A DNA stretch of 27,554 bases, from positions 1-27,554 of the IMG/VR virus record IMGVR_UViG_3300034523_000046; one strand, given 5' to 3'. Of the stretch, positions 1,023-24,689 are shown piece after piece. Positions within the stretch are counted from its first letter, which is position 1. Every line of letters begins with the position of its first letter. Source of the stretch: a virus. The notes under the pieces are model-generated. The model saw nothing but the letters and a program-made list of their open reading frames with translations, searched no databases and was not told the origin of the DNA. A program made the position numbers and the translations under genes.

Positions 1023-1072
1023 GGCCTCACTCCAGACGGAAAGCCAGCAACACTAAGCCTCCTCTGAGTACC

Positions 1073-1085
1073 GCTCTTTAACAAC
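1073..1085 (+). promoter_or_regulatory. boxA-like element 1
   Basis: GCTCTTTAACAAC matches the bacterial rRNA leader boxA (core GCTCTTTAACA), the RNA site bound by NusB/NusE (S10) in antitermination complexes. It lies in the predicted leader of early promoter 1. The word CAGCAACAC precedes it at 1045-1053, as also happens before the second copy. Confidence 0.55.
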
Positions 1086-1251
1086 ACCATATGCGTATAC
1101 CACGGGTCTAATCCCTAAGGTTATCAAGGGTCTGCACTGGGCCTTGGTCCTACGCCTCACTCAGTGGGCATCATTAGGACTGACATACAGGCAGACCGTC
1201 GAGCTAAGTGTAAGACCGGCAGGCATCAAGGCGATAACTTAGGGATACCAC

Positions 1252-1280
1252 TTGACAGACTTAGGGAATACGCATAGGAT
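1252..1280 (+). promoter_or_regulatory. Host sigma70-like early promoter 2
   Basis: A perfect TTGACA at 1252-1257, a 17-bp spacer and TAGGAT at 1275-1280 (four of six matches to TATAAT) form the best host promoter candidate in the window. The predicted start near 1287 lies about 155 nt before the first early gene. Confidence 0.7.
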
Positions 1281-1304
1281 GAGCGCCAAGACAGCAACAC
1301 CAAC

Positions 1305-1317
1305 GCTCTTTAACAAC
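1305..1317 (+). promoter_or_regulatory. boxA-like element 2
   Basis: GCTCTTTAACAAC, identical over 13 nt to the copy at 1073-1085, sits about 20 nt after the predicted start of early promoter 2. CAGCAACAC at 1292-1300 precedes it. Having the same pair of words behind both promoters argues that it is functional rather than accidental. Confidence 0.6.
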
Positions 1318-1347
1318 TTGAAGACAATCAGATAGTGATGACGATGG

Positions 1348-1398
1348 TTCATTAGGTGATGCACCTTAGGGTTTAGCTTTAGGGTGCATCCCAATGAA
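1348..1398 (+). ncRNA. Early leader hairpin, RNase III site candidate
   Basis: TTCATT (1348-1353) pairs with AATGAA (1393-1398). GATGCACCTTA (1358-1368) pairs with TAGGGTGCATC (1380-1390), with one G-U pair and a loop of 11 nt. This long imperfect stem lies just before the first early gene, where T7 has the RNase III site R0.3. No T-run follows, so processing or mRNA stabilisation is more likely than termination. Confidence 0.55.
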
Positions 1399-1426
1399 CG
1401 CAACGTAACGTAACGCAACGTAACGC
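1397..1426 (+). repeat. AACGC/AACGT pentamer tandem repeat before first early gene
   Basis: Six consecutive AACGY pentamers run from 1397 to 1426, and another AACGCAATG overlaps the start codon at 1444. Related AACGCAANNN decamers occur before the genes at 1923 and 2267. The shared leader element may act on translation or mRNA stability. The function is unknown. Confidence 0.75.
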
Positions 1427-1443
1427 AATGGGAGGTCAACGCA

Positions 1444-1725
1444 ATGACTCTAACTGCTGAACTTAAGGAATACACGCTGGACACTGGCCGTCGAATCTAT
1501 GCGGACAATGCGCCCTGCAAGATCACAGAGGCACCACGTAGTAACTCTGTGAGTGGCTACGGGAGCTGCCTACCAACGCAATACATGGTGCATTACCTGG
1601 GGCGCTGGCGTCGGGTATACGCAATGTGCTGGTCTAATGTGGCGAGCTTGTACATTAAGGACAAGTCCGCTGATAAGGGACGCATCTTTGTGGACATCTA
1701 TGAGGGCTCGCACGGTGCTAACTAA
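1444..1725 (+). CDS. Early small protein, unknown function (93 aa)
   Basis: This is the first gene after the host promoters, so it should be made immediately on infection. GGGAGG at 1430-1435 gives a Shine-Dalgarno sequence 8 nt before the ATG. The protein is basic and polar, with a central aromatic stretch (residues about 47-66, rich in W and Y) and three cysteines. I see no signal peptide, membrane segment or known motif. In T7-like phages this place is held by small, fast-evolving proteins against host defences or host enzymes, and a host takeover role is inferred from position only. Its end overlaps the next gene by 11 nt, suggesting coupled translation. Confidence 0.65.
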   Translation: MTLTAELKEYTLDTGRRIYADNAPCKITEAPRSNSVSGYGSCLPTQYMVHYLGRWRRVYAMCWSNVASLYIKDKSADKGRIFVDIYEGSHGAN

Positions 1726-1876
1726 ACGTCAAGTCGCATGGGCTAAGCAACACGACTGGTATGTATGCCTTCGGGAGGACGGTGCTGTAATGGTCCGTGA
1801 TTATACCGAAGAGGGCGCACAGACCTTTAAGGCCTTCACGGATTACCGGGAGTTAAGAGCCTGGGCGGGATACTGA
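1715..1876 (+). CDS. Early small protein, unknown function (53 aa)
   Basis: The frame is open further upstream, but that part is the shadow of the preceding gene. I choose GTG at 1715 because TGAGGG (1701-1706) lies 8 nt before it. ATG at 1700 is the alternative and has a weak ribosome site. The protein begins MLTKRQVAWAKQHDWYV, then has a charged, aromatic body and ends in AWAGY. No motif is recognised. It overlaps the preceding gene by 11 nt and is followed by AACGC repeats that form the leader of the next gene. The start is uncertain; the reading frame after about 1725 is more secure. Confidence 0.55.
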   Translation: MLTKRQVAWAKQHDWYVCLREDGAVMVRDYTEEGAQTFKAFTDYRELRAWAGY

Positions 1877-1880
1877 GAGT

Positions 1881-1910
1881 AACGCAATACAACGCAAAGT
1901 AACGCAATGA
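1881..1910 (+). repeat. AACGCAANNN decamer repeat before gene at 1923
   Basis: Three decamers, AACGCAATAC, AACGCAAAGT and AACGCAATGA, lie in tandem. The last overlaps the GAGGT ribosome site of the next gene. The same word precedes the genes at 1444 and 2267. Confidence 0.75.
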
Positions 1911-1922
1911 GGTACGCACACT

Positions 1923-2198
1923 ATGTTAATCCTTGGGACTAATCTAACTCGCGCTCTTCAAGAAGAAGCTAAACGCCTCTATGTGCATCGCTTTACAGGG
2001 GATCATAAGCCCTTCTGGGCAACCCGCCCGATGCCTAATGGTAAACCCTATCCGGTCCAGTTTGCAGATGATGCAGATTGGCTCGCTAATACCTACTTTG
2101 AGGTCACTAAGAAGGGCACCTTCAGCCGTCGAGTGGTCCACTGCCAGAGTAACCCAACATGGCCCTATAACCCTGAGTTGCGCTCTAAGAGTGCCTGA
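1923..2198 (+). CDS. Early small protein, unknown function (91 aa)
   Basis: The ATG follows GAGGT at 1909-1913. The protein has an amphipathic N-terminal part (TNLTRALQEEAKRLYVHRF), a central aromatic/proline part around residues 31-45, and a basic C-terminus. Nothing looks membrane-bound, and I recognise no family. It sits between another small early gene and ardA in the host-transcribed block, with an AACGC repeat leader on both sides. A host-directed early role is likely by position, but no specific activity can be read. Confidence 0.65.
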   Translation: MLILGTNLTRALQEEAKRLYVHRFTGDHKPFWATRPMPNGKPYPVQFADDADWLANTYFEVTKKGTFSRRVVHCQSNPTWPYNPELRSKSA

Positions 2199-2224
2199 GT
2201 GGGTCATGTAGCAATACCGCAACT

Positions 2225-2254
2225 AACGCAATGAAACGCAAAGTAACGTAAGAG
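2225..2254 (+). repeat. AACGCAANNN decamer repeat before ardA
   Basis: AACGCAATGA, AACGCAAAGT and AACGTAAGAG lie in tandem just before the ardA start. The middle unit is identical to one at 1891-1900. No strong Shine-Dalgarno sequence is present here (only AGAG near 2251-2255), so the repeat itself may matter for translation. Confidence 0.7.
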
Positions 2255-2266
2255 AGTAACAGTCAA

Positions 2267-2881
2267 ATGAAAATCTATGCAGCCTGCTTGGCCTCCTACA
2301 ACAACGCCACTCTACACGGTCAGTGGTTTGACCTGGACGACTACGCCGATGAGTTTGACCTGGAACAGGCCATTGAGCGTGAGGTCCTAATGACCAGTCC
2401 GTTCCCTAACGTCACCGTTGCGTGCCCACACTGTGAGACAGCGCGCCGGGGCATGGGGGTCGCTGAGGGTCACAGCTTCACGGGGTTCTATGCGTGCTCG
2501 CACTGTGATGGCTACGGGAACCATACGAGCGCCGAGGAGTGGGCTATCCACGACTACGATGGTGAGGGCCTCAGTGGGTTCGGAGAGTATCCAGACCTGG
2601 GCGAACTCATGGAGCACAAGCGCCTCTATGAGGAGCACGGGGACGCATGGCTGGCCTTCAAGTCCTGCTTCGGGGACTCAGTGACCGAGGACGACTTTGA
2701 GAACGCCTACCGGGGACAGTACGAAAGCATGGCGGACTTCGCTGAAGAGTGGATGACCGAGTGCCACGGGCTTAAGGGAGACGAACCGTTCTTCTACTGG
2801 ATCGACTGGGAGCGGGCCGCACGGGACCTGGAGGTGGATTTCACCTTCTGTGATGGCTATGTGTTTTATAGCTGCTGGTGA
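2267..2881 (+). CDS. ardA: ArdA antirestriction protein with Cys4 insertion
   Basis: ArdA proteins mimic bent B-form DNA and block type I restriction-modification enzymes. The N-terminus (IYAACLASYNNATLHGQWFDL), the central EEWAIHDYDGEGL near residues 90-102, the FENAYRGQYESMADFAEE segment near 144-161 and the late WERAARDLEVDFTF match the family, and the protein is strongly acidic. It has 204 residues, against roughly 165-180 usual. The extra length is an insertion at about residues 50-88 containing CPHC (53-56) and CSHC (77-80), a likely zinc site not usual for ArdA. It sits in the early block where T7 encodes Ocr, an unrelated DNA mimic with the same job. A strong terminator follows. Confidence 0.88.
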   Translation: MKIYAACLASYNNATLHGQWFDLDDYADEFDLEQAIEREVLMTSPFPNVTVACPHCETARRGMGVAEGHSFTGFYACSHCDGYGNHTSAEEWAIHDYDGEGLSGFGEYPDLGELMEHKRLYEEHGDAWLAFKSCFGDSVTEDDFENAYRGQYESMADFAEEWMTECHGLKGDEPFFYWIDWERAARDLEVDFTFCDGYVFYSCW

Positions 2882-2900
2882 TCTTGTAGAGTGCCTGGAT

Positions 2901-2936
2901 AAGCCTCATGCGAGACGTTTCGCCTGGGGCTTTTTT
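2901..2936 (+). terminator. Rho-independent terminator after ardA
   Basis: AAGCCTCATGCGA (2901-2913) pairs with TCGCCTGGGGCTT (2920-2932), with one G-U pair and one mismatch and a 6-nt loop. A run of six T follows at 2931-2936. It lies between the host promoters and all downstream early genes, including the RNA polymerase gene. Confidence 0.75.
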
Positions 2937-2987
2937 GTGACACCACGAGGGTAATTGACTGTGAAACGAGCATAAGGAACTGACACT

Positions 2988-3470
2988 GTGAGCATTTTCC
3001 CGTTTACCACTGACATTGAGCCGCTATTAGCCAATCTGGACGGAATACCTATCGACCCTGAAGTCCAGTTCGCCAATGAGTTCAAGGCACTGTTAGATGG
3101 TCCTGGGGAGCTATGGGGGCCACAGGCCACGGGGCGCTCGAAGCTGGCAACACGGCTGTACTTCGCGGGGTGGTCTCGCGCTGAGCTGGAGTCTGTAGGG
3201 CTCAAGCCAAAGGACGTGGAGAACTTTCGGCGCAAGTACAAGCTGACATTGGGAGGCGCAGGGAGGCCTAAGGGAATCCCTCAGTCAACCGTAAGGCAAC
3301 CGGAGGGTAATACCATCAAAGACATTCTTGCTACTGCTGAGGCCCGTAGGGTGGCACTCACAGCACAGATCGAATTGAAACGCCTGGAGACTGAGCAGCT
3401 CGAACAGGAGCTTGCGCAGATCGAAGAGGCAATCAAGGCCATGCAACCTAACGAACAACCGGTGATTTGA
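2988..3470 (+). CDS. Coiled-coil protein, unknown function (160 aa)
   Basis: The start is GTG at 2988, with AAGGA at 2973-2977 about 10 nt upstream. Residues about 50-85 could form a helix-turn-helix-like unit (LYFAGWSRAELESVGLKPKD, then a basic RRKYK). It is followed by GRPKG, which resembles an AT-hook core. Residues about 115-150 form a charged coiled coil rich in E, Q and L. Together these suggest a DNA-binding, self-associating protein, but I recognise no family and the inference is weak. It is the first gene after the ardA terminator and no good promoter is visible before it, so it probably depends on read-through. It ends just before the oxygenase gene. Confidence 0.7.
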   Translation: MSIFPFTTDIEPLLANLDGIPIDPEVQFANEFKALLDGPGELWGPQATGRSKLATRLYFAGWSRAELESVGLKPKDVENFRRKYKLTLGGAGRPKGIPQSTVRQPEGNTIKDILATAEARRVALTAQIELKRLETEQLEQELAQIEEAIKAMQPNEQPVI

Positions 3471-3482
3471 AGAGGAGCCATG

Positions 3483-4211
3483 ATGCACGTATTGACTTCC
3501 ACGGGCGTAGCCATCCCGACTGTCGATAAGTACCACAACGAGATACGCCCACTCATCAAGACGATCAAAGCATTAGGTGATGAGGCTGAGCGAGTACACG
3601 GGCTGACCTGGGGCATGGAGGTTGAAGGTGCCCCGGTCCTGGAGACACTCCAGAAGTTTGTCACAGAGTACGGTCGGGAGGGCTCTCAGAGGCCCTTCTC
3701 AAGCGGGATCTACTCGATACCCTTCCTGACCCCTGAGTATTGCGATGCGCTGCTCACAGAGGTCGCTGCGATGTCCTTTGAGGTTAACCCTGATGAGGAG
3801 GCAGAAGTTCAAATCCCTGAGATTACCTTGGCGGATACCTGCCCAACGCTGCACAGTTGCCTGCACGGACTGTTCAACAACGTGGTTAACCCACTGACAA
3901 AGGTACTGTATCAACTGGAGCAAGCCCGAATGTCGAGCATCCAGTTCGCTCAGTACACCCCTGAGAGCACCGCGCACGGCAACTGGCACCACGATAGGGA
4001 TTCTGACATTACACTGGTGGTGGCCCTAAGTGACTTCCATAAGGGCGGTGGCACTGCGGTTAAGCCTCAGGGCTTAGGGGAGCCCTTTGTGGTCCCACAG
4101 TTGCCTGTAGGTCACGCTATGCTCTTCCAGGGTAGCAGAACGCTACACAAGGGCCTGCCTGTTACTGAAGGCGCGAGGAACCTTTTGGTGTTCTGGAGCG
4201 AGCTGAAGTAG
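3483..4211 (+). CDS. 2-oxoglutarate/Fe(II)-dependent oxygenase
   Basis: The C-terminal half has the double-stranded beta-helix signature of this superfamily (prolyl 4-hydroxylase-like): the HxD iron ligands H169 and D171 within GNWHHDRDSD, the GGGTAV turn, the distal ligand H222 in RTLHKG, and R232 (GARNLLVFW) for the 2-oxoglutarate carboxylate. The N-terminal 70 residues are unassigned. Such enzymes hydroxylate proteins, nucleobases or small molecules using O2 and 2-oxoglutarate. The substrate here cannot be read. ATG 3480 is also possible, but GAGGAG at 3472-3477 fits 3483 better. The 3' end overlaps a minus-strand reading frame by 50 bp. Confidence 0.85.
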   Translation: MHVLTSTGVAIPTVDKYHNEIRPLIKTIKALGDEAERVHGLTWGMEVEGAPVLETLQKFVTEYGREGSQRPFSSGIYSIPFLTPEYCDALLTEVAAMSFEVNPDEEAEVQIPEITLADTCPTLHSCLHGLFNNVVNPLTKVLYQLEQARMSSIQFAQYTPESTAHGNWHHDRDSDITLVVALSDFHKGGGTAVKPQGLGEPFVVPQLPVGHAMLFQGSRTLHKGLPVTEGARNLLVFWSELK

Positions 4212-4371
4212 GCTCTTCGGTGCAATCGTAGTCGAAGTGCTCACGGGCCACAGCGGCCTCGTAGTCTTCAACAAGGTGAGGACTAAGCGCAGGGACCTTT
4301 GAACCTTTAGGAATGGCGAACCGAGACAGTGCGGAGAGACCTTGTTTGCTGGTTCCTGCGGAGTGTTTCAT
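4162..4371 (-). CDS. Probable minus-strand small protein (69 aa)
   Basis: The plus strand has a 212-bp gap between genes at 4212-4423, unusual in this packed genome. On the minus strand this gap holds a frame starting at ATG 4371, preceded 8 nt upstream by AGAGG. The protein starts MKHSAGTSKQGLSALSRF and continues with SPHLVEDYEAAVAREHFDYD, a balanced, protein-like composition. The last 17 codons overlap the oxygenase gene tail to tail. The frame is open upstream to 4464, but the ribosome site supports 4371. I see no clear promoter and no known family. All other genes in the window run left to right, so this is either a rare antisense gene or a relic. Confidence 0.5.
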   Translation of the reverse strand: MKHSAGTSKQGLSALSRFAIPKGSKVPALSPHLVEDYEAAVAREHFDYDCTEEPTSARSRTPKGSSRLQ

Positions 4372-4423
4372 GTGGCGTGCCTCTTTGAATCCAGTATCGA
4401 CGTGAGAATAGGTTAGTACAGAA

Positions 4424-4669
4424 ATGACTGATAACGCAACGGGCCGGAATATCCGGTCTATCAAGTTTTACTGCACGGTTCCCGTGGTCACCCAGGGCAA
4501 GCTGAGTGGGTCGGAACTGAAGTCCACCTACCACAGCCAGGGCGATGACCAGGAGCTGAGCTACAGCATTGACACAGGTCCTACAGGGACATTGACGGTC
4601 ACTGTGGGTTCCACCGAATACGTTTACAAACTCTCTGACATAGTGGGGCGCGTGGAGGTCGCACTGTAA
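4424..4669 (+). CDS. Small protein, unknown function (81 aa)
   Basis: The protein has a basic N-terminal part and then alternating polar and hydrophobic residues with many T, S, G and V (residues about 45-75), suggesting a small beta-rich fold. The ribosome site is weak (AGG within AATAGG, about 14 nt before the ATG), so the start is tentative. The stop codon overlaps the start of the Bro-N gene in TAATG, which points to translational coupling. I recognise no family. Confidence 0.6.
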   Translation: MTDNATGRNIRSIKFYCTVPVVTQGKLSGSELKSTYHSQGDDQELSYSIDTGPTGTLTVTVGSTEYVYKLSDIVGRVEVAL

Positions 4670-5526
4670 TGACGATGAAATTCGTTAAGCAGAACTTCAT
4701 GGGAATCGAGCTGGATGTGCTCATTGGGCATCCTGATTACCGCCTTCTGTTTGTGGCTACGCAGGTCGCAAGGGCGGCTGGTCTGAAGAATCCAAGCAAT
4801 GCAGTTTGGAGCTACCGTCGGACTGAGCCGGAAGCACCAGTGCTGACCCTCGGTGAAGTCTCCCAAAATCTGGGAGACCTACCTAAAGACCCATCTGGCA
4901 GGTCTGCGCAGAAGAGCACTGCTCTTATGTCGGACTCAGATGCCTACCAGATGCTGCTACGGGGCCACGCTCCAGCATCTGAGCCCTTCCGCAAGTGGGT
5001 CACAGATGAGGTTATCCCTTCCATTGTTAAGACTGGCACCTACAACATCCACGAAAGTGAGACCAAGGAAGCCCAGCAGTTCGCGGGGGAATTCGCACAG
5101 CTCCACTCGGCTATCTCTGAGCTGACCAGTGAGGTCATGAGTCTCAAGGAGATCATCGCGGGCTTCCAAAAGTCCTCACTTGTAGCGGCCTCTGGTGCGC
5201 CTGCGAAGAGCCCATATGAAGGACAGCCTGCTGCGGCGGTGTGTGACCCTGCTGGGTTCAACAAGTCGCTGTACAACGAGCTGACCAGTGTGGTCCTGGA
5301 TCAGGCGGCTGCTGAGCGGATGCTCAGGCGTGTGGTCATCGACATGGACATCCGGCTGGGTCGCCTATGGGCTAAGGAGGACGGACGGCCTCTCAAGGAA
5401 TTTGTCTCAGCCGGACAACGCCGCAAGTGGAATTTGTTTCCTCAGAAGTGGCTTCAAGATCACATGACACGCAAGTTCTACCAGGACACCATCCGGTCGG
5501 TTCTCAGCCAGAAAGCAGTTAGCTAA
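4669..5526 (+). CDS. Bro-N domain protein (phage antirepressor-like)
   Basis: Residues about 1-115 match the Bro-N domain of phage antirepressors and baculovirus BRO proteins: an FMGIELDVLIGHPDYRLLFV strand region, VARAAGLKNPSNAVW, and the typical SDSDAYQMLLRGHAPASEPF and WVTDEVIPSIVKTGTY near the end. Such domains bind DNA. Residues about 125-155 form a coiled coil (LHSAISELTSEVMSLKEII), and the C-terminal 110 residues are a separate unassigned domain. GGAGGT at 4654-4659 supports the ATG at 4669. An alternative ATG lies two codons on. In temperate phages such proteins relieve repression. In a lytic T7-like genome the role is unclear, perhaps host or prophage gene control. The gene ends just before the phage promoters that drive RNA polymerase. 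Confidence 0.82.
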   Translation: MTMKFVKQNFMGIELDVLIGHPDYRLLFVATQVARAAGLKNPSNAVWSYRRTEPEAPVLTLGEVSQNLGDLPKDPSGRSAQKSTALMSDSDAYQMLLRGHAPASEPFRKWVTDEVIPSIVKTGTYNIHESETKEAQQFAGEFAQLHSAISELTSEVMSLKEIIAGFQKSSLVAASGAPAKSPYEGQPAAAVCDPAGFNKSLYNELTSVVLDQAAAERMLRRVVIDMDIRLGRLWAKEDGRPLKEFVSAGQRRKWNLFPQKWLQDHMTRKFYQDTIRSVLSQKAVS

Positions 5527-5540
5527 CGCTCGGCAGCGCG

Positions 5541-5563
5541 TAAAAACCCTCACTTTAAGCGGA
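5541..5563 (+). promoter_or_regulatory. Phage RNA polymerase promoter 1
   Basis: The core TAAAAACCCTCACT is followed by TTAAG. Counting as in T7, +1 is A at 5558 and +2 is G. The core equals T3 promoters from -12 to -4 (ACCCTCACT). It is 174 nt upstream of the polymerase gene. Confidence 0.9.
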
Positions 5564-5609
5564 GGGGCCTAAAGGTTACATACACAAGGAGCCCTCTTTA
5601 GGTCCCTCC
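5561..5609 (+). ncRNA. Leader hairpin after promoter 1
   Basis: A 14-nt arm at 5561-5574 (GGAGGGGCCTAAAG) pairs with CTTTAGGTCCCTCC at 5596-5609, with one G-U pair and a 21-nt loop. It begins four nucleotides after the predicted start. No T-run follows, so mRNA protection or RNase III processing is more likely than termination. Confidence 0.65.
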
Positions 5610-5637
5610 CTGAGTGTAGTGATGGTGTGGTTGGTTT

Positions 5638-5660
5638 TAAAAACCCTCACTTAAAGGGGG
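5638..5660 (+). promoter_or_regulatory. Phage RNA polymerase promoter 2
   Basis: The core TAAAAACCCTCACT is followed by TAAAG, placing A at 5655 as +1. It is the second of two promoters directly before the RNA polymerase gene, 97 bp after the first. Confidence 0.9.
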
Positions 5661-5678
5661 ACCCAGAGTCCCTCTTTA
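5652..5678 (+). ncRNA. 5' hairpin of transcript from promoter 2
   Basis: TAAAGGGGGAC (5652-5662) pairs with GTCCCTCTTTA (5668-5678), with one G-U pair and a CCAGA loop. In RNA started at 5655 the first eight nucleotides would be paired, giving a blocked 5' end. Confidence 0.65.
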
Positions 5679-5731
5679 GGATTTCTTAAAGATTCCTCTC
5701 TAAGACCATTAAGACATTAGGATTATTTCTG

Positions 5732-8404
5732 ATGCGCGCACTGCTGCCTGAAAAACACGACTTTACCGACATCAAAGAGTCGCAAGCTGCTTTCAACACA
5801 CTGTCCAAACTGTTCGGTCAAGACCTTGCAGTGCAACAACTGGCGCTCGAACACGAGGCCTATGAGCTTGGTGAGCAGCGTTTCGCAAAGAACCTTGAGC
5901 GCGCCATTGAGGCAGGCGAATACTCCGACACTGCGCCCGCTCAGCCACTTCTGACAGCCTTGGTCCCTCGGTTCATCGCTCGATACAACGAGTGGCTTGA
6001 GTACCAGAACACCAAGGTCCGCCGTAAACACGTAGCCATTGAGGAGTTCCGCAAGCTAAGCCCTGAGATTGCCGCTGTCGCAACCCTGAAGCGCGTCCTG
6101 AGTCTCCTGGCCGTCTCTGGTACAGGGGCTTCGGTACAACGAATTGCCATTGGTCTTGGTCGGACCATCGAAGATGAGATGCGCTTTGGGCGTATCCGTG
6201 AGGAGGAGGTAGAACACTACAAGCGCTTTGTGCGCCCATCCTTGGATAAGCGCAACGGCCAGCTCTACAAGAGGGAGTACCTCAAGGCCGTCGAGAAGAA
6301 CATGCTTGAGACCGGCAAACTGTCTTCCCAATGGATCGCCTGGGAGAAGGATGAGGCCAACCTGGAGAACGATAAGCGCTTCCAGGTGGGCATCAAGCTC
6401 ATGGAGATTCTCATCGAGTCTACCGAGTTGATCGTGGTCCGCCGCGACTACGCAGGGGACTCCAGAAGGGACCAGGAGATCGTTGAGCTGCACCCTGAGT
6501 GGGTCAAGAAGATGGGCGAACGGGCCTTCAACCTTGCAGGCATCGCGCCGGTCTACCAGCCTTGCGTGGTCCCTCCCAAGAAGTGGACAGGGGTCAAGGG
6601 TGGCGGCTACTGGGCACGAGGTCGTAAGCCCCTGAACTTCATCCGTGTGCGCAACCGTAGAGCCCTGGAGCGCTACCGCGATGTGGACATGCCTGAGGTC
6701 TATGAGGCCGTTAATCTCGCCCAGGAGACCGCCTGGACCATCAACAAGAAGGTCCTGGAGGTAGCCAACGAGCTGGCCCTGTGGCAAAACGTGCCGATCA
6801 AGGACTTCCCATCGCTCAGCGGTGAGCCTCTCCCGGAACGCTTTGACCACATGGACGATGATGAAATGGTTCTCAAGCAATGGAAGCGTGAGGCATCCAA
6901 GGTCTACCGCCGTGAGCGCGCCCGGACCTCCCGCCGTCTGCGCTTCGAGTTCATCATCGAGCAGGCCAACAAGTTCAAGGACTATGAGGCCATCTGGTTC
7001 CCCTACAACATGGACTGGAGGGGTCGGGTTTACGCAATCCCAGCGTTCAACCCTCAGGGCAACGATATGACCAAAGGCCTGCTGATGGCAGCCGAAGGGG
7101 CACCTATCGGGGTCGAGGGGATGAAGTGGTTAGCGATCCACGGGGCGAACACTGCCGGAGTCGATAAGGTGTCCTTCAACGACCGCCTGAAGTGGGTCGA
7201 GGACAACAAGGCGATGATCCTGGCGTGCGCTGAGGACCCACTGGGCTGCACTTGGTGGATGGACAAGGATTCTCCGTTCTGTTTCCTGGCGTTCTGCTTC
7301 GAGTGGGCGGGGGTCGAGAAGGACGGGATCAACCATGTGTCCGCTCTGCCTATTGCCTTCGACGGGTCCTGCTCAGGGATTCAGCACTTCAGTGCAATGC
7401 TTAGGGATGAACGTGGTGGCCGCGCTGTGAACTTGGTTCCAAGTGAGCAGGTGCAGGATATCTATAAGCTGGTCGCAGAGGAGGTTAACAAGCGCCTGAA
7501 GGCCGACTTCGAGAACGGTACGCCGAACAAGGCGGACACCAAGGCCAACGAGAAAACCGGTGAGATTCGCGATGTTCTGATCCTGGGCACCAAAACGCTG
7601 GCCGCTGGCTGGCTGGAGTACGGGGTCACCCGGAAAGTGACAAAACGGTCCGTGATGACCTTGCCTTACGGCTCCAAGGAGTACGGCTTCAGTGACCAGC
7701 TCCTGGAGGACATCATCAAGCCTGCCGTGGATGCAGGGGAGGGCACGATGTTCACCGACCAGGGCCAATACGCTCGCTACCTTGCGAAGCTGATTTGGGA
7801 CTCTGTGAGCACCGTAGTGGTGGCCGCTGTGGAGGCGATGAACTGGCTCCAATCGGCAGCGAAACTCCTGGCAACCCCAGTTGTTGACAAGAAAACCAAG
7901 GAGGTCCTGAAACCTTGTCTGCCTGTTAGCTGGACGACCCCTGACGGGTTCCCGGTTTGGCAGGAATACTTCAAACCCGTGAAGCGCCGCATCGACCTGA
8001 TGTTCCTGGGAACGCACCGCATGGAGGCTACCGTAGTCGTCAAGGACTCGGCGGAACTCGATGCCCGCAAGCAGGAAGCAGGTGTCTCACCAAACTTTGT
8101 TCACTCCCAGGACGGCAGTCACCTACGGAAGACCGTAGTCAAGGCTAACCGCTCCTACGGGATCAACTTCTTCGCCCTCATCCATGACTCCTTCGGCACC
8201 ATCCCCGCGTATGCAGGGCTGATGTTTAAGGCCGTCCGGGAAACGATGGTGGAGACCTACGAAAACAACGATGTCCTGGCCGAATTCCGGGAGGAGTTTA
8301 TGGACCAGCTACATGAAACCCAGCTTGAGAAAATGCCCGCGCTCCCTCGTTCTGGGGACCTGGACATTCGCTTGATCCTCGAATCTGATTTTGCATTCGC
8401 ATAA
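5732..8404 (+). CDS. 1: T7-like single-subunit RNA polymerase (gp1)
   Basis: This 890-residue enzyme (T7: 883) transcribes phage class II and III genes. Family motifs are clear: WRGRVYAIPAFNPQGND, the catalytic aspartate in DGSCSGIQHFSAMLRDE, the O-helix KRSVMTLPYGSKEYGF, the second catalytic aspartate in LIHDSFGTIPA, and the C-terminal DFAFA. In the specificity loop, aligned from the C-terminus without gaps, the positions equal to T7 R746, N748, R756 and Q758 are R753, D755, R763 and E765. Asp at the 748 position is as in T3 and fits the C at -11 and -10 of the promoters here. ATG 5732 has AGGA about 10 nt upstream. Two of the enzyme's own promoters lie just upstream. Confidence 0.98.
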   Translation: MRALLPEKHDFTDIKESQAAFNTLSKLFGQDLAVQQLALEHEAYELGEQRFAKNLERAIEAGEYSDTAPAQPLLTALVPRFIARYNEWLEYQNTKVRRKHVAIEEFRKLSPEIAAVATLKRVLSLLAVSGTGASVQRIAIGLGRTIEDEMRFGRIREEEVEHYKRFVRPSLDKRNGQLYKREYLKAVEKNMLETGKLSSQWIAWEKDEANLENDKRFQVGIKLMEILIESTELIVVRRDYAGDSRRDQEIVELHPEWVKKMGERAFNLAGIAPVYQPCVVPPKKWTGVKGGGYWARGRKPLNFIRVRNRRALERYRDVDMPEVYEAVNLAQETAWTINKKVLEVANELALWQNVPIKDFPSLSGEPLPERFDHMDDDEMVLKQWKREASKVYRRERARTSRRLRFEFIIEQANKFKDYEAIWFPYNMDWRGRVYAIPAFNPQGNDMTKGLLMAAEGAPIGVEGMKWLAIHGANTAGVDKVSFNDRLKWVEDNKAMILACAEDPLGCTWWMDKDSPFCFLAFCFEWAGVEKDGINHVSALPIAFDGSCSGIQHFSAMLRDERGGRAVNLVPSEQVQDIYKLVAEEVNKRLKADFENGTPNKADTKANEKTGEIRDVLILGTKTLAAGWLEYGVTRKVTKRSVMTLPYGSKEYGFSDQLLEDIIKPAVDAGEGTMFTDQGQYARYLAKLIWDSVSTVVVAAVEAMNWLQSAAKLLATPVVDKKTKEVLKPCLPVSWTTPDGFPVWQEYFKPVKRRIDLMFLGTHRMEATVVVKDSAELDARKQEAGVSPNFVHSQDGSHLRKTVVKANRSYGINFFALIHDSFGTIPAYAGLMFKAVRETMVETYENNDVLAEFREEFMDQLHETQLEKMPALPRSGDLDIRLILESDFAFA

Positions 8405-8417
8405 AGGAATCCCTCTT

Positions 8418-8543
8418 ATGTACTTCGAAAAGATGACCAGAAGGACTGCTGAACGCCGCTCTTTTGAAGAGCACAAGAGCCTTAAAGTACGCAAAGGCAA
8501 GATGCACAAAACTAAACGTCTGACCCGTGGGGAGTGGAACTGA
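8418..8543 (+). CDS. 1.1: gp1.1-like small basic protein (41 aa)
   Basis: The ORF starts at ATG 8418 after an AAAGGAA ribosome site and encodes 41 residues beginning MYFEKMTRRTAERRSFEEHK, with a strongly basic C-terminal half (KVRKGKMHKTKR). T7 gp1.1 (42 aa) has the same size and place, starts with the similar FEKMTKRS and is likewise basic. Its function is not established in T7. The stop codon overlaps the ligase start in TGATG, so the two are probably translationally coupled. Confidence 0.82.
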   Translation: MYFEKMTRRTAERRSFEEHKSLKVRKGKMHKTKRLTRGEWN

Positions 8544-9553
8544 TGGCTGTACAGGAAGTTGTCCTCAATACAAAACCGGCTCAACCCGTCCCGTACAACG
8601 AGGCGGCAGTGCTGAAGGTCCTCAATGAGTCCTACCTGATCGCTGACACCAAGGAGGATGGCGTCCAGTTGAATCTGCTGGTCCGAAACGACCTGGGGTC
8701 CGCTGTCGTGGACTTCCTGAGCCGTGCCGGGAAGCGCCTACCGGCCCTCCAGGATGCCTACCGTGTGGCCCTGAAGAGTGAGCTGGTATTCAGCAAACTC
8801 CTGGCGGATGACCGCTGCATTTACCCTGATGGCTTCATGGTCCAGGCGGAAATCGTCACCACTGGGCAGCCAGCCGAGGTGACAGCGGGAAGCCTGAGGC
8901 GCGTGGCTAATCGACTCGACCTGAGCACTATCGAAATCCATGTTTTTGGTGTTGTACCATTGGATGTCGTCGAGTCCGGTGAGGACCACGATGTCACCCA
9001 CGGGGTGATGAAGTATCACGTCGAGGCGATAACTGCCCTGCTTCAACTGCATGTCCCCCAGATCAAATGGTCTGCCGTGGAGACAATCGACGTGTTCACT
9101 CGGGAAGAGCTACAGCGGGTCTATGAGGTCCGCCGAGCCAACGGTAAGGAAGGCTTGGTTCTCAAGGACCCTAACGCCATCTGGAAGCGCGGTAAGAAGG
9201 TCGGCCAGTGGAAGATGAAACCTGAGGAGTCTATCGACGGAAAAGTCGTTGGGCTCGTCTGGGGGACTCCAGGCCTGGGCAATGAAGGCAAGGTGATCGG
9301 CTTCGAGGTGGAACTTGAGGACGGCCATGTCGTAAATGCCTGTGGACTGACTGAAGAACAGAAGACCGCGTTTACCGAAGCTGTAACCGGTGAGCGGATC
9401 GGTGACCAGTTCTTCCCGTTCACTTGCCCCATCAACGTGTTTGAGGGTTGGGCTGTAGAGGTAGGCTACATGGAGCGATTCCGGGACGGTAGCCTGAGGC
9501 ATCCAAGTTATAACCGGTGGCGGGGCATAAGCGACCCCCTCACCAAGGAGTAA
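8543..9553 (+). CDS. 1.3: ATP-dependent DNA ligase (gp1.3)
   Basis: The enzyme seals nicks, such as those between Okazaki fragments, by an enzyme-AMP intermediate. The nucleophile is K37 in TKEDG (motif I). Motif IV is EGLVLKDP, motif V is QWKMKPE, and the OB-fold segment GLVWGTPGLGNEGKVIGFEV and the end GSLRHPSYNRWRG match T7 ligase closely. Length is 336 residues, T7 359. Motif I normally reads KxDGxR; here it reads KEDGVQ, so the usual Arg is Gln. I choose ATG 8543 with GGGGAG at 8529-8534. GTG 8534 in the same frame is less likely. It is the last clearly assigned enzyme of the early block, as in T7. Confidence 0.95.
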   Translation: MAVQEVVLNTKPAQPVPYNEAAVLKVLNESYLIADTKEDGVQLNLLVRNDLGSAVVDFLSRAGKRLPALQDAYRVALKSELVFSKLLADDRCIYPDGFMVQAEIVTTGQPAEVTAGSLRRVANRLDLSTIEIHVFGVVPLDVVESGEDHDVTHGVMKYHVEAITALLQLHVPQIKWSAVETIDVFTREELQRVYEVRRANGKEGLVLKDPNAIWKRGKKVGQWKMKPEESIDGKVVGLVWGTPGLGNEGKVIGFEVELEDGHVVNACGLTEEQKTAFTEAVTGERIGDQFFPFTCPINVFEGWAVEVGYMERFRDGSLRHPSYNRWRGISDPLTKE

Positions 9554-9821: not shown

Positions 9822-9862
9822 AAACAAAGGGTCGTCTCTTAACTGGGTCGGCCCTTTTGTTT
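9822..9862 (+). terminator. Terminator at end of early block (TE-like)
   Basis: AAACAAAGGGTCG (9822-9834) pairs with CGGCCCTTTTGTTT (9849-9862) through 13 pairs with one G-U pair and one bulged T. The 3' arm ends in a T-rich tract continuing TTGTTTGTCTG. It follows the ligase block, the place of the T7 early terminator TE for host RNA polymerase. Confidence 0.8.
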
Positions 9863-9906
9863 GTCTGAATGCTTAGCTTCCTAATAATTAGTTTTGGGTG
9901 GCAATT

Positions 9907-24649: not shown

Positions 24650-24689
24650 AACCCCTTTGAGTCCGCAATGGCTCTTAGGGGTTTTTTTT
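24650..24689 (+). terminator. Terminator after capsid gene (T-phi-like)
   Basis: AACCCCT (24650-24656) pairs with AGGGGTT (24677-24683), with an inner helix GAGTC (24659-24663) to GGCTC (24670-24674), then eight T at 24682-24689. T7 has its phage polymerase terminator T-phi at the same place, between genes 10 and 11, with a similar AACCCC/GGGGTT stem. Confidence 0.88.

Follow-up and report, generated by a model that had tools for sequence, protein, structure and literature searches.

The early leaders of most T7- and SP6-type phages sampled, including both early leaders of a phage of the genus Warsawvirus, carry boxA, the RNA signal that keeps bacterial RNA polymerase elongating along rRNA genes. 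Its conservation in the leaders of both types shows selection on the element, which has the features of an RNA signal linked to host promoters. We consider it fairly probable that this rrn-type boxA loads the Nus complex on the early host polymerase, as a general processivity and Rho-resistance trait of T7- and SP6-type phages that have an early polymerase gene. A broader reading is put forward tentatively, in which these leaders would make rRNA-style Nus complexes without any phage protein and so shield early transcription, with a terminator metering gene 1 in Warsawvirus. T7 is among the best-studied viruses, yet its boxA is unannotated in the public records consulted. If the element works as proposed, the host Nus machinery helps to explain early expression before the phage polymerase exists, and the leader would be a protein-free counterpart of the lambda N system.

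Early region of the Warsawvirus window

The window, that is, the whole stretch of DNA analysed (27,554 nt of the IMG/VR record IMGVR_UViG_3300034523_000046), matches the Pseudomonas phages 3MF5, phTUNSm and phTUNSv at 95-99% over its left 6.2 kb and is, from its sequence, a Warsawvirus (Studiervirinae, T7 group). Its early region has the layout of the Studiervirinae, with host promoters at the left end, an early phage RNA polymerase, phage promoters and a terminator after gene 1. Two host-type promoters are predicted on the + strand: promoter 1 (TTGACT-17-TTTAAT, 994-1022; start site near 1028; weight-matrix score 11.7) and promoter 2 (TTGACA-17-TAGGAT, 1252-1280; start site near 1286), the latter found by both the consensus scan and the weight matrix. 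The 3MF5 record annotates putative host promoters at the equivalent places.

The sequence-only reading of this DNA had claimed an identical boxA at both host promoters, and the exact 13-mer GCTCTTTAACAAC indeed occurs twice, at 1073-1085 and, followed by TTGAAGAC, at 1305-1317, both on the + strand and, counted from the predicted start sites, at about +45 of promoter 1 and +19 of promoter 2. There is no further copy in the window, and the + strand count expected from base composition is 0.0002; matches with two mismatches occur at chance level. Both boxes fit the published rrn-type consensus GYTCTTTAANA (PMC5725501), are identical to the boxA of a Pseudomonas 16S rRNA leader, and lie in the transcribed leaders 3' of the host promoters, not inside them. 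They are conserved in 3MF5, phTUNSm, phTUNSv and L008. The first copy is not followed by the TGGA extension described below.

Other elements of the ribosomal signal are less complete. A boxC (GTGTGGG, TCTGTGTGGG-like) follows boxA in the 16S leaders of E. coli and Pseudomonas and is absent 3' of both window boxes when the sequence is read by eye. The binding of SuhB is much weaker on RNA devoid of boxC and the boxA-boxC linker (PMC6614801), and therefore the full rrn transcription antitermination complex (rrnTAC) may not form here. The window shows no evident boxB-like hairpin 5' of its boxes, an Rfam search of the leader gave chance matches only, and a collection scan with CGCTCTTTAACAAC alone retrieved, among the matches listed, nothing informative on function. 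No antiterminator family was found by Pfam among eight early ORFs, although N proteins are hard to detect.

From promoter 1, 415 nt of untranslated leader precede the first ORF, and 127 nt separate the second boxA from this ORF. This interval contains a long predicted hairpin (1341-1407, + strand), inside a -41.3 kcal/mol fold of 1318-1430, whose position is that of the T3 RNase III site R0.3, annotated downstream of boxA in the T3 record; a similar processing role may be supposed by analogy. The antirestriction gene ardA follows (2267-2881, + strand; Pfam PF07275, E 1.1e-28), with a predicted intrinsic terminator 3' of it (2901-2936, + strand). A gene with an antirepressor-like BRO-N domain (4669-5526) is also found in the early region of this lytic phage. 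Gene 1 (5732-8404, + strand) encodes a single-subunit phage RNA polymerase of 890 aa, recognized by Pfam (PF00940, PF14700) and tblastn. It is preceded on the same strand by two predicted phage promoters, AAAAACCCTCACTTTAAG (5541-5562, motif at 5544; this motif has seven copies in the window) and AAAAACCCTCACTTAAAG (5638-5660, motif match at 5641), in the place where the 3MF5 record annotates phage promoters, and by a 13-bp hairpin (5650-5680, + strand) that scores poorly as a terminator (d -44.9) and is perhaps an RNase III site. Ligase Pfam matches occur downstream of gene 1 (8534-9550), followed at the position of the T7 terminator TE by a predicted intrinsic terminator (9829-9864, + strand; d-score 12.7). 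A second further strong terminator on the + strand (24652-24681, d 36.8) lies in the place expected for the late terminator of T7-type phages.

Distribution of boxA in T7- and SP6-type leaders

An exact boxA is present in the early leaders of T7 (813), T3 (781), K1F, K11, gh-1, phiPSA2 and phiYeO3-12, and in those of nine further relatives infecting Pseudomonas or Dickeya. The leaders of SP6 contain two exact copies and one with one mismatch, and Era103 carries GTTCTTTAACA. The element was not found in phiKMV, LUZ19, Fri1, P-SSP7 and VP4. Among 85 IMG/VR loci of T7 or SP6 type, picked by polymerase similarity and reaching 1 kb or more beyond the 5' end of gene 1, GYTCTTTAANA occurs upstream of gene 1 in 69, a proportion to be read with the bias of this sample to enteric phages and its near-duplicates; several of the remaining loci have one or two mismatches or are truncated.

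The motif is strongly biased in place and strand. In 99 loci, the regions upstream of gene 1 (386 kb) contain 105 forward and four reverse matches and the downstream regions (795 kb) three, and there is no match to the reversed motif. Of the four reverse matches, three themselves belong to leftward leaders (- strand; L192 at 408, L194 at 425 and L196 at 370), near the left end in a placement like that of T7 A0, with a predicted leftward promoter 16-17 nt before the box (scores 9.7, 12.9 and 15.3). The distances from promoter to boxA are mostly 10-100 nt.

The flanks of the motif are close to random across 67 distinct contexts, but conservation extends beyond the searched 11-mer into T-N-TGGATA; as the sites were selected by columns 1-11 of the motif, these later columns are the independent evidence of conservation. 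The extension resembles the boxA of the E. coli rrnB 16S-23S spacer, GCTCTTTAAAAATCTGGATCAAG. Base 13 of the box is C in Pseudomonas phages and T in enteric phages, and the idea that it tracks the host was rejected because the Dickeya phage BIM BV-99 has C and Pf1 ERZ-2017 has T; by sequence, this base follows lineage. In addition, the leaders of T7 (L137, about 765-786), T3 (L138), K1F (L143) and their IMG/VR relatives, 18 distinct sequences in all, share a hairpin some 40 nt 5' of boxA with an invariant loop ACACTGAAA and a covarying stem (covariation 0.705, against 0.170 after shuffling and at most 0.138 after sliding). The order in ribosomal operons is boxB then boxA (PMC6614801), which the hairpin-boxA order of these leaders matches, and the hairpin is a possible boxB-like element.

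A rightward boxA is absent from some near-complete T7-type genomes (L163 and L194), and the element is, judging from these genomes, not essential in every T7-type phage. The polymerase of L163 is 90% identical to that of T7, and this genome, a natural exception, has three good A promoters but no boxA.

No boxA is annotated in the early leader in the public records of T7, T3, gh-1 and 3MF5. In the open-access papers searched, we found no description of a boxA relying on host factors only in T7- or SP6-type early leaders; the subscription and older literature may differ, and the T7 boxA may already have caught the attention of specialists. In the passages found of a host screen, nusB knock-down is discussed as protective against lambda, and T7 is not mentioned there (PMC7553319).

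Proposed role of boxA and the passage to gene 1

In ribosomal operons, boxA is both necessary and sufficient to form the rrnTAC (PMC10250234), and the reconstituted complex decreases intrinsic and Rho-dependent termination in vitro, the former with SuhB (PMC6614801). By analogy, boxA emerging in the phage leader RNA would bind host NusB-S10. Together with NusA, NusG and perhaps SuhB, NusB-S10 would make the host polymerase processive and Rho-resistant, as on rRNA operons. The modified polymerase would then run through the hairpin-rich untranslated leader and the early genes as far as gene 1, at a distance of about 4.5 kb, and this effect would need no known phage antiterminator protein. Given the length of the phage leaders and their lack of translation, Rho protection together with general processivity would be the simplest role, and the ardA terminator would be affected secondarily, if at all. 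In the broader reading, boxA leaders, some with a boxB-like hairpin, would follow the main early host promoters, the leftward ones included, and the shield would cover Rho and pausing, perhaps also transcription-driven genome entry. In Warsawvirus, the modified polymerase would pass the ardA terminator more often than an unmodified one, and partial passage would leave ardA transcribed more than gene 1.

The obstacle itself, claimed by the sequence-only reading as a good intrinsic terminator, is well supported. The element at 2901-2936 consists of AAGCCTCATGCGAGACGTTTCGCCTGGGGCTT followed by a T tract, with a core hairpin of -14.9 kcal/mol, and although a simple consensus scan did not pick it up, its d-score (16.3) exceeds that of T7 TE (3.2), and when 1029-5731 was dinucleotide-shuffled 200 times, no shuffle equalled it and the best reached 4.3. 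It is also present in 3MF5, phTUNSm and L008, and diverged homologues occur in L007 (1502-1533) and L006 (2108-2139), the L006 copy being weak (d -4.1). An initial view that L006 and L007 lack the terminator, taken from a hairpin directly 3' of ardA that is devoid of a T tract, was rejected because the diverged terminator lies about 150 nt further on. Between this terminator and gene 1 (2937-5731), the best sigma70-like promoter scores 8.3, less than the mean of the shuffles (9.9), which agrees with the earlier claim that no good host promoter is found there, in terms of consensus and not as proof of absence. With the same weight matrix, T7 A1, A2, A3 and C score 10.6, 13.4, 13.0 and 11.1, T3 C 14.9 and the SP6 promoter 12.2; T7, T3 and SP6 have promoters scoring 11-15 just before gene 1, unlike the window. 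As no promoter above background lies between the terminator and gene 1, the first polymerase RNA probably crosses the terminator, as had been proposed.

How it does so can be explained in more than one way. A serious possibility, to which we also give tentative weight, is that termination is incomplete and that a little read-through makes the first phage polymerase, which then uses the phage promoters at 5544 and 5641. With two such promoters between the terminator and gene 1, a small leak could be enough to set off autocatalysis with no need for antitermination, and gh-1 and phiPSA2 likewise have promoters ahead of gene 1, where a terminator is annotated. Such a leak leaves the conservation of boxA unexplained; boxA would be unneeded for the gene 1 step, in a manner compatible with a general role elsewhere. 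For the gene 1 step, therefore, a leak together with the two phage promoters is an account as good as help from boxA.

The sequence-only reading had gone further, in that the phage would recruit the Nus machinery so that early transcription reaches gene 1. This proposal is supported in part by the identity of boxA with the ribosomal signal and by its conservation, and help with read-through is plausible given the lowering of intrinsic termination by the rrn complex (PMC6614801), whereas the link between boxA and the terminator is not supported. In phTUNSv, ardA is lost together with the terminator and the beginning of the following ORF through a deletion of about 1 kb (window 2223-3230) with short CGCAA repeats at both ends, yet both boxes remain. 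Most boxA-bearing relatives, with dozens of T7-group leaders among them, have no comparable terminator before gene 1, even with a count that is an upper bound, several of the "strong terminators" called in the early regions of T7 and T3 being RNase III sites or weak-tailed hairpins. In addition, leftward leaders carry boxA and do not lead to gene 1. Therefore, boxA did not arise for passing this terminator; it is more general than the ardA terminator and, by its distribution, probably older. A boxA serving chiefly for host read-through of this terminator, with partial termination setting the ratio of ardA to gene 1, thus appears unlikely, even though the terminator is strong and conserved, lacks an above-background promoter behind it and could be weakened by the rrnTAC. 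Nevertheless, the terminator may meter gene 1 and boxA may ease its passage, and a high ardA and low gene 1 ratio is a fair inference from the sequence.

The leftward leaders, with no gene 1 downstream, and the several copies of boxA in some lineages could also be explained by a decoy, where abundant early boxA RNA would titrate NusB-S10 (and SuhB) and thereby reduce host rRNA synthesis and ribosome assembly. With one to three boxes per phage genome against very abundant rRNA leaders, and with a location just after promoters that suits a role in cis, this is quite unlikely. Translational control, in which NusB-S10 on boxA would block ribosomes at the first early gene, has a precedent in suhB and a ParE-like gene, both repressed through a boxA in the mRNA leader (PMC5725501); the surveyed sites are no more than about 50 nt from the start codon, whereas 127 nt and a strong hairpin separate the second window box from the first ORF, which makes this mode very improbable. 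Finally, chance matches to a motif of just 11-13 nt, found at chance level once two mismatches are allowed, have a practically negligible probability, already refuted as they are by conservation, by the 0.0002 exact copies expected in the window and by 105 leader matches against three downstream.

Comparison with known boxA leaders and terminators

A close parallel to the favoured reading, a Nus-dependent processivity signal, is the nut-like site of bacterial rrn operons (boxB-boxA-boxC), where the exact boxA likewise lies in an untranslated leader a short way 3' of the promoter. The leaders of T7, T3 and K1F type have a hairpin upstream of boxA, possibly boxB-like, and the phage linker resembles that of the E. 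coli spacer boxA. In contrast, the phage boxA precedes protein-coding early genes, the window is without boxC, and Warsawvirus is without an evident boxB-like hairpin. The likeness is known here from sequence, and dependence on Nus factors would be its functional counterpart.

Lambdoid phages use boxA together with N, and the lambda nut sites likewise place a boxA for host NusB-S10 in a phage leader ahead of early genes. In lambda, boxA comes before boxB and the phage protein N is required, whereas in T7-type leaders the hairpin, if present, comes before boxA and no antiterminator is known.

Indeed, rrn-type boxA is already known outside rRNA operons, at suhB, at a ParE-like gene and in CRISPR arrays. 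The leaders of CRISPR arrays likewise have boxA in a non-rRNA leader, where it aids distal transcription, and a boxA grafted on a synthetic array increased distal transcription about 10-fold (PMC7862264); they differ in preceding a non-coding array and in being cellular. In our collection, L237 and L241 have a bacterial boxA with the phage-type extension shortly before CRISPR-like repeats, and L239, L243 (Xenorhabdus), L244, L245 and L246 (Pseudomonas) have copies outside any detected rRNA gene, some of them with a phage-type TCGGAAT or CTGGA extension. The suhB-type leaders also carry boxA in an mRNA leader, with the difference that the box is near the start codon and repressive; the suhB boxA lowers expression, showing that Nus factors can repress too (PMC5725501).

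As for the terminator, the Pseudomonas phage gh-1, of T7 type, likewise has an annotated minor terminator, Te1, between its host promoters and gene 1. However, Te1 overlaps the phage promoter phi1 and scores d -6.5, whereas the Warsawvirus terminator follows ardA and scores 16.3.
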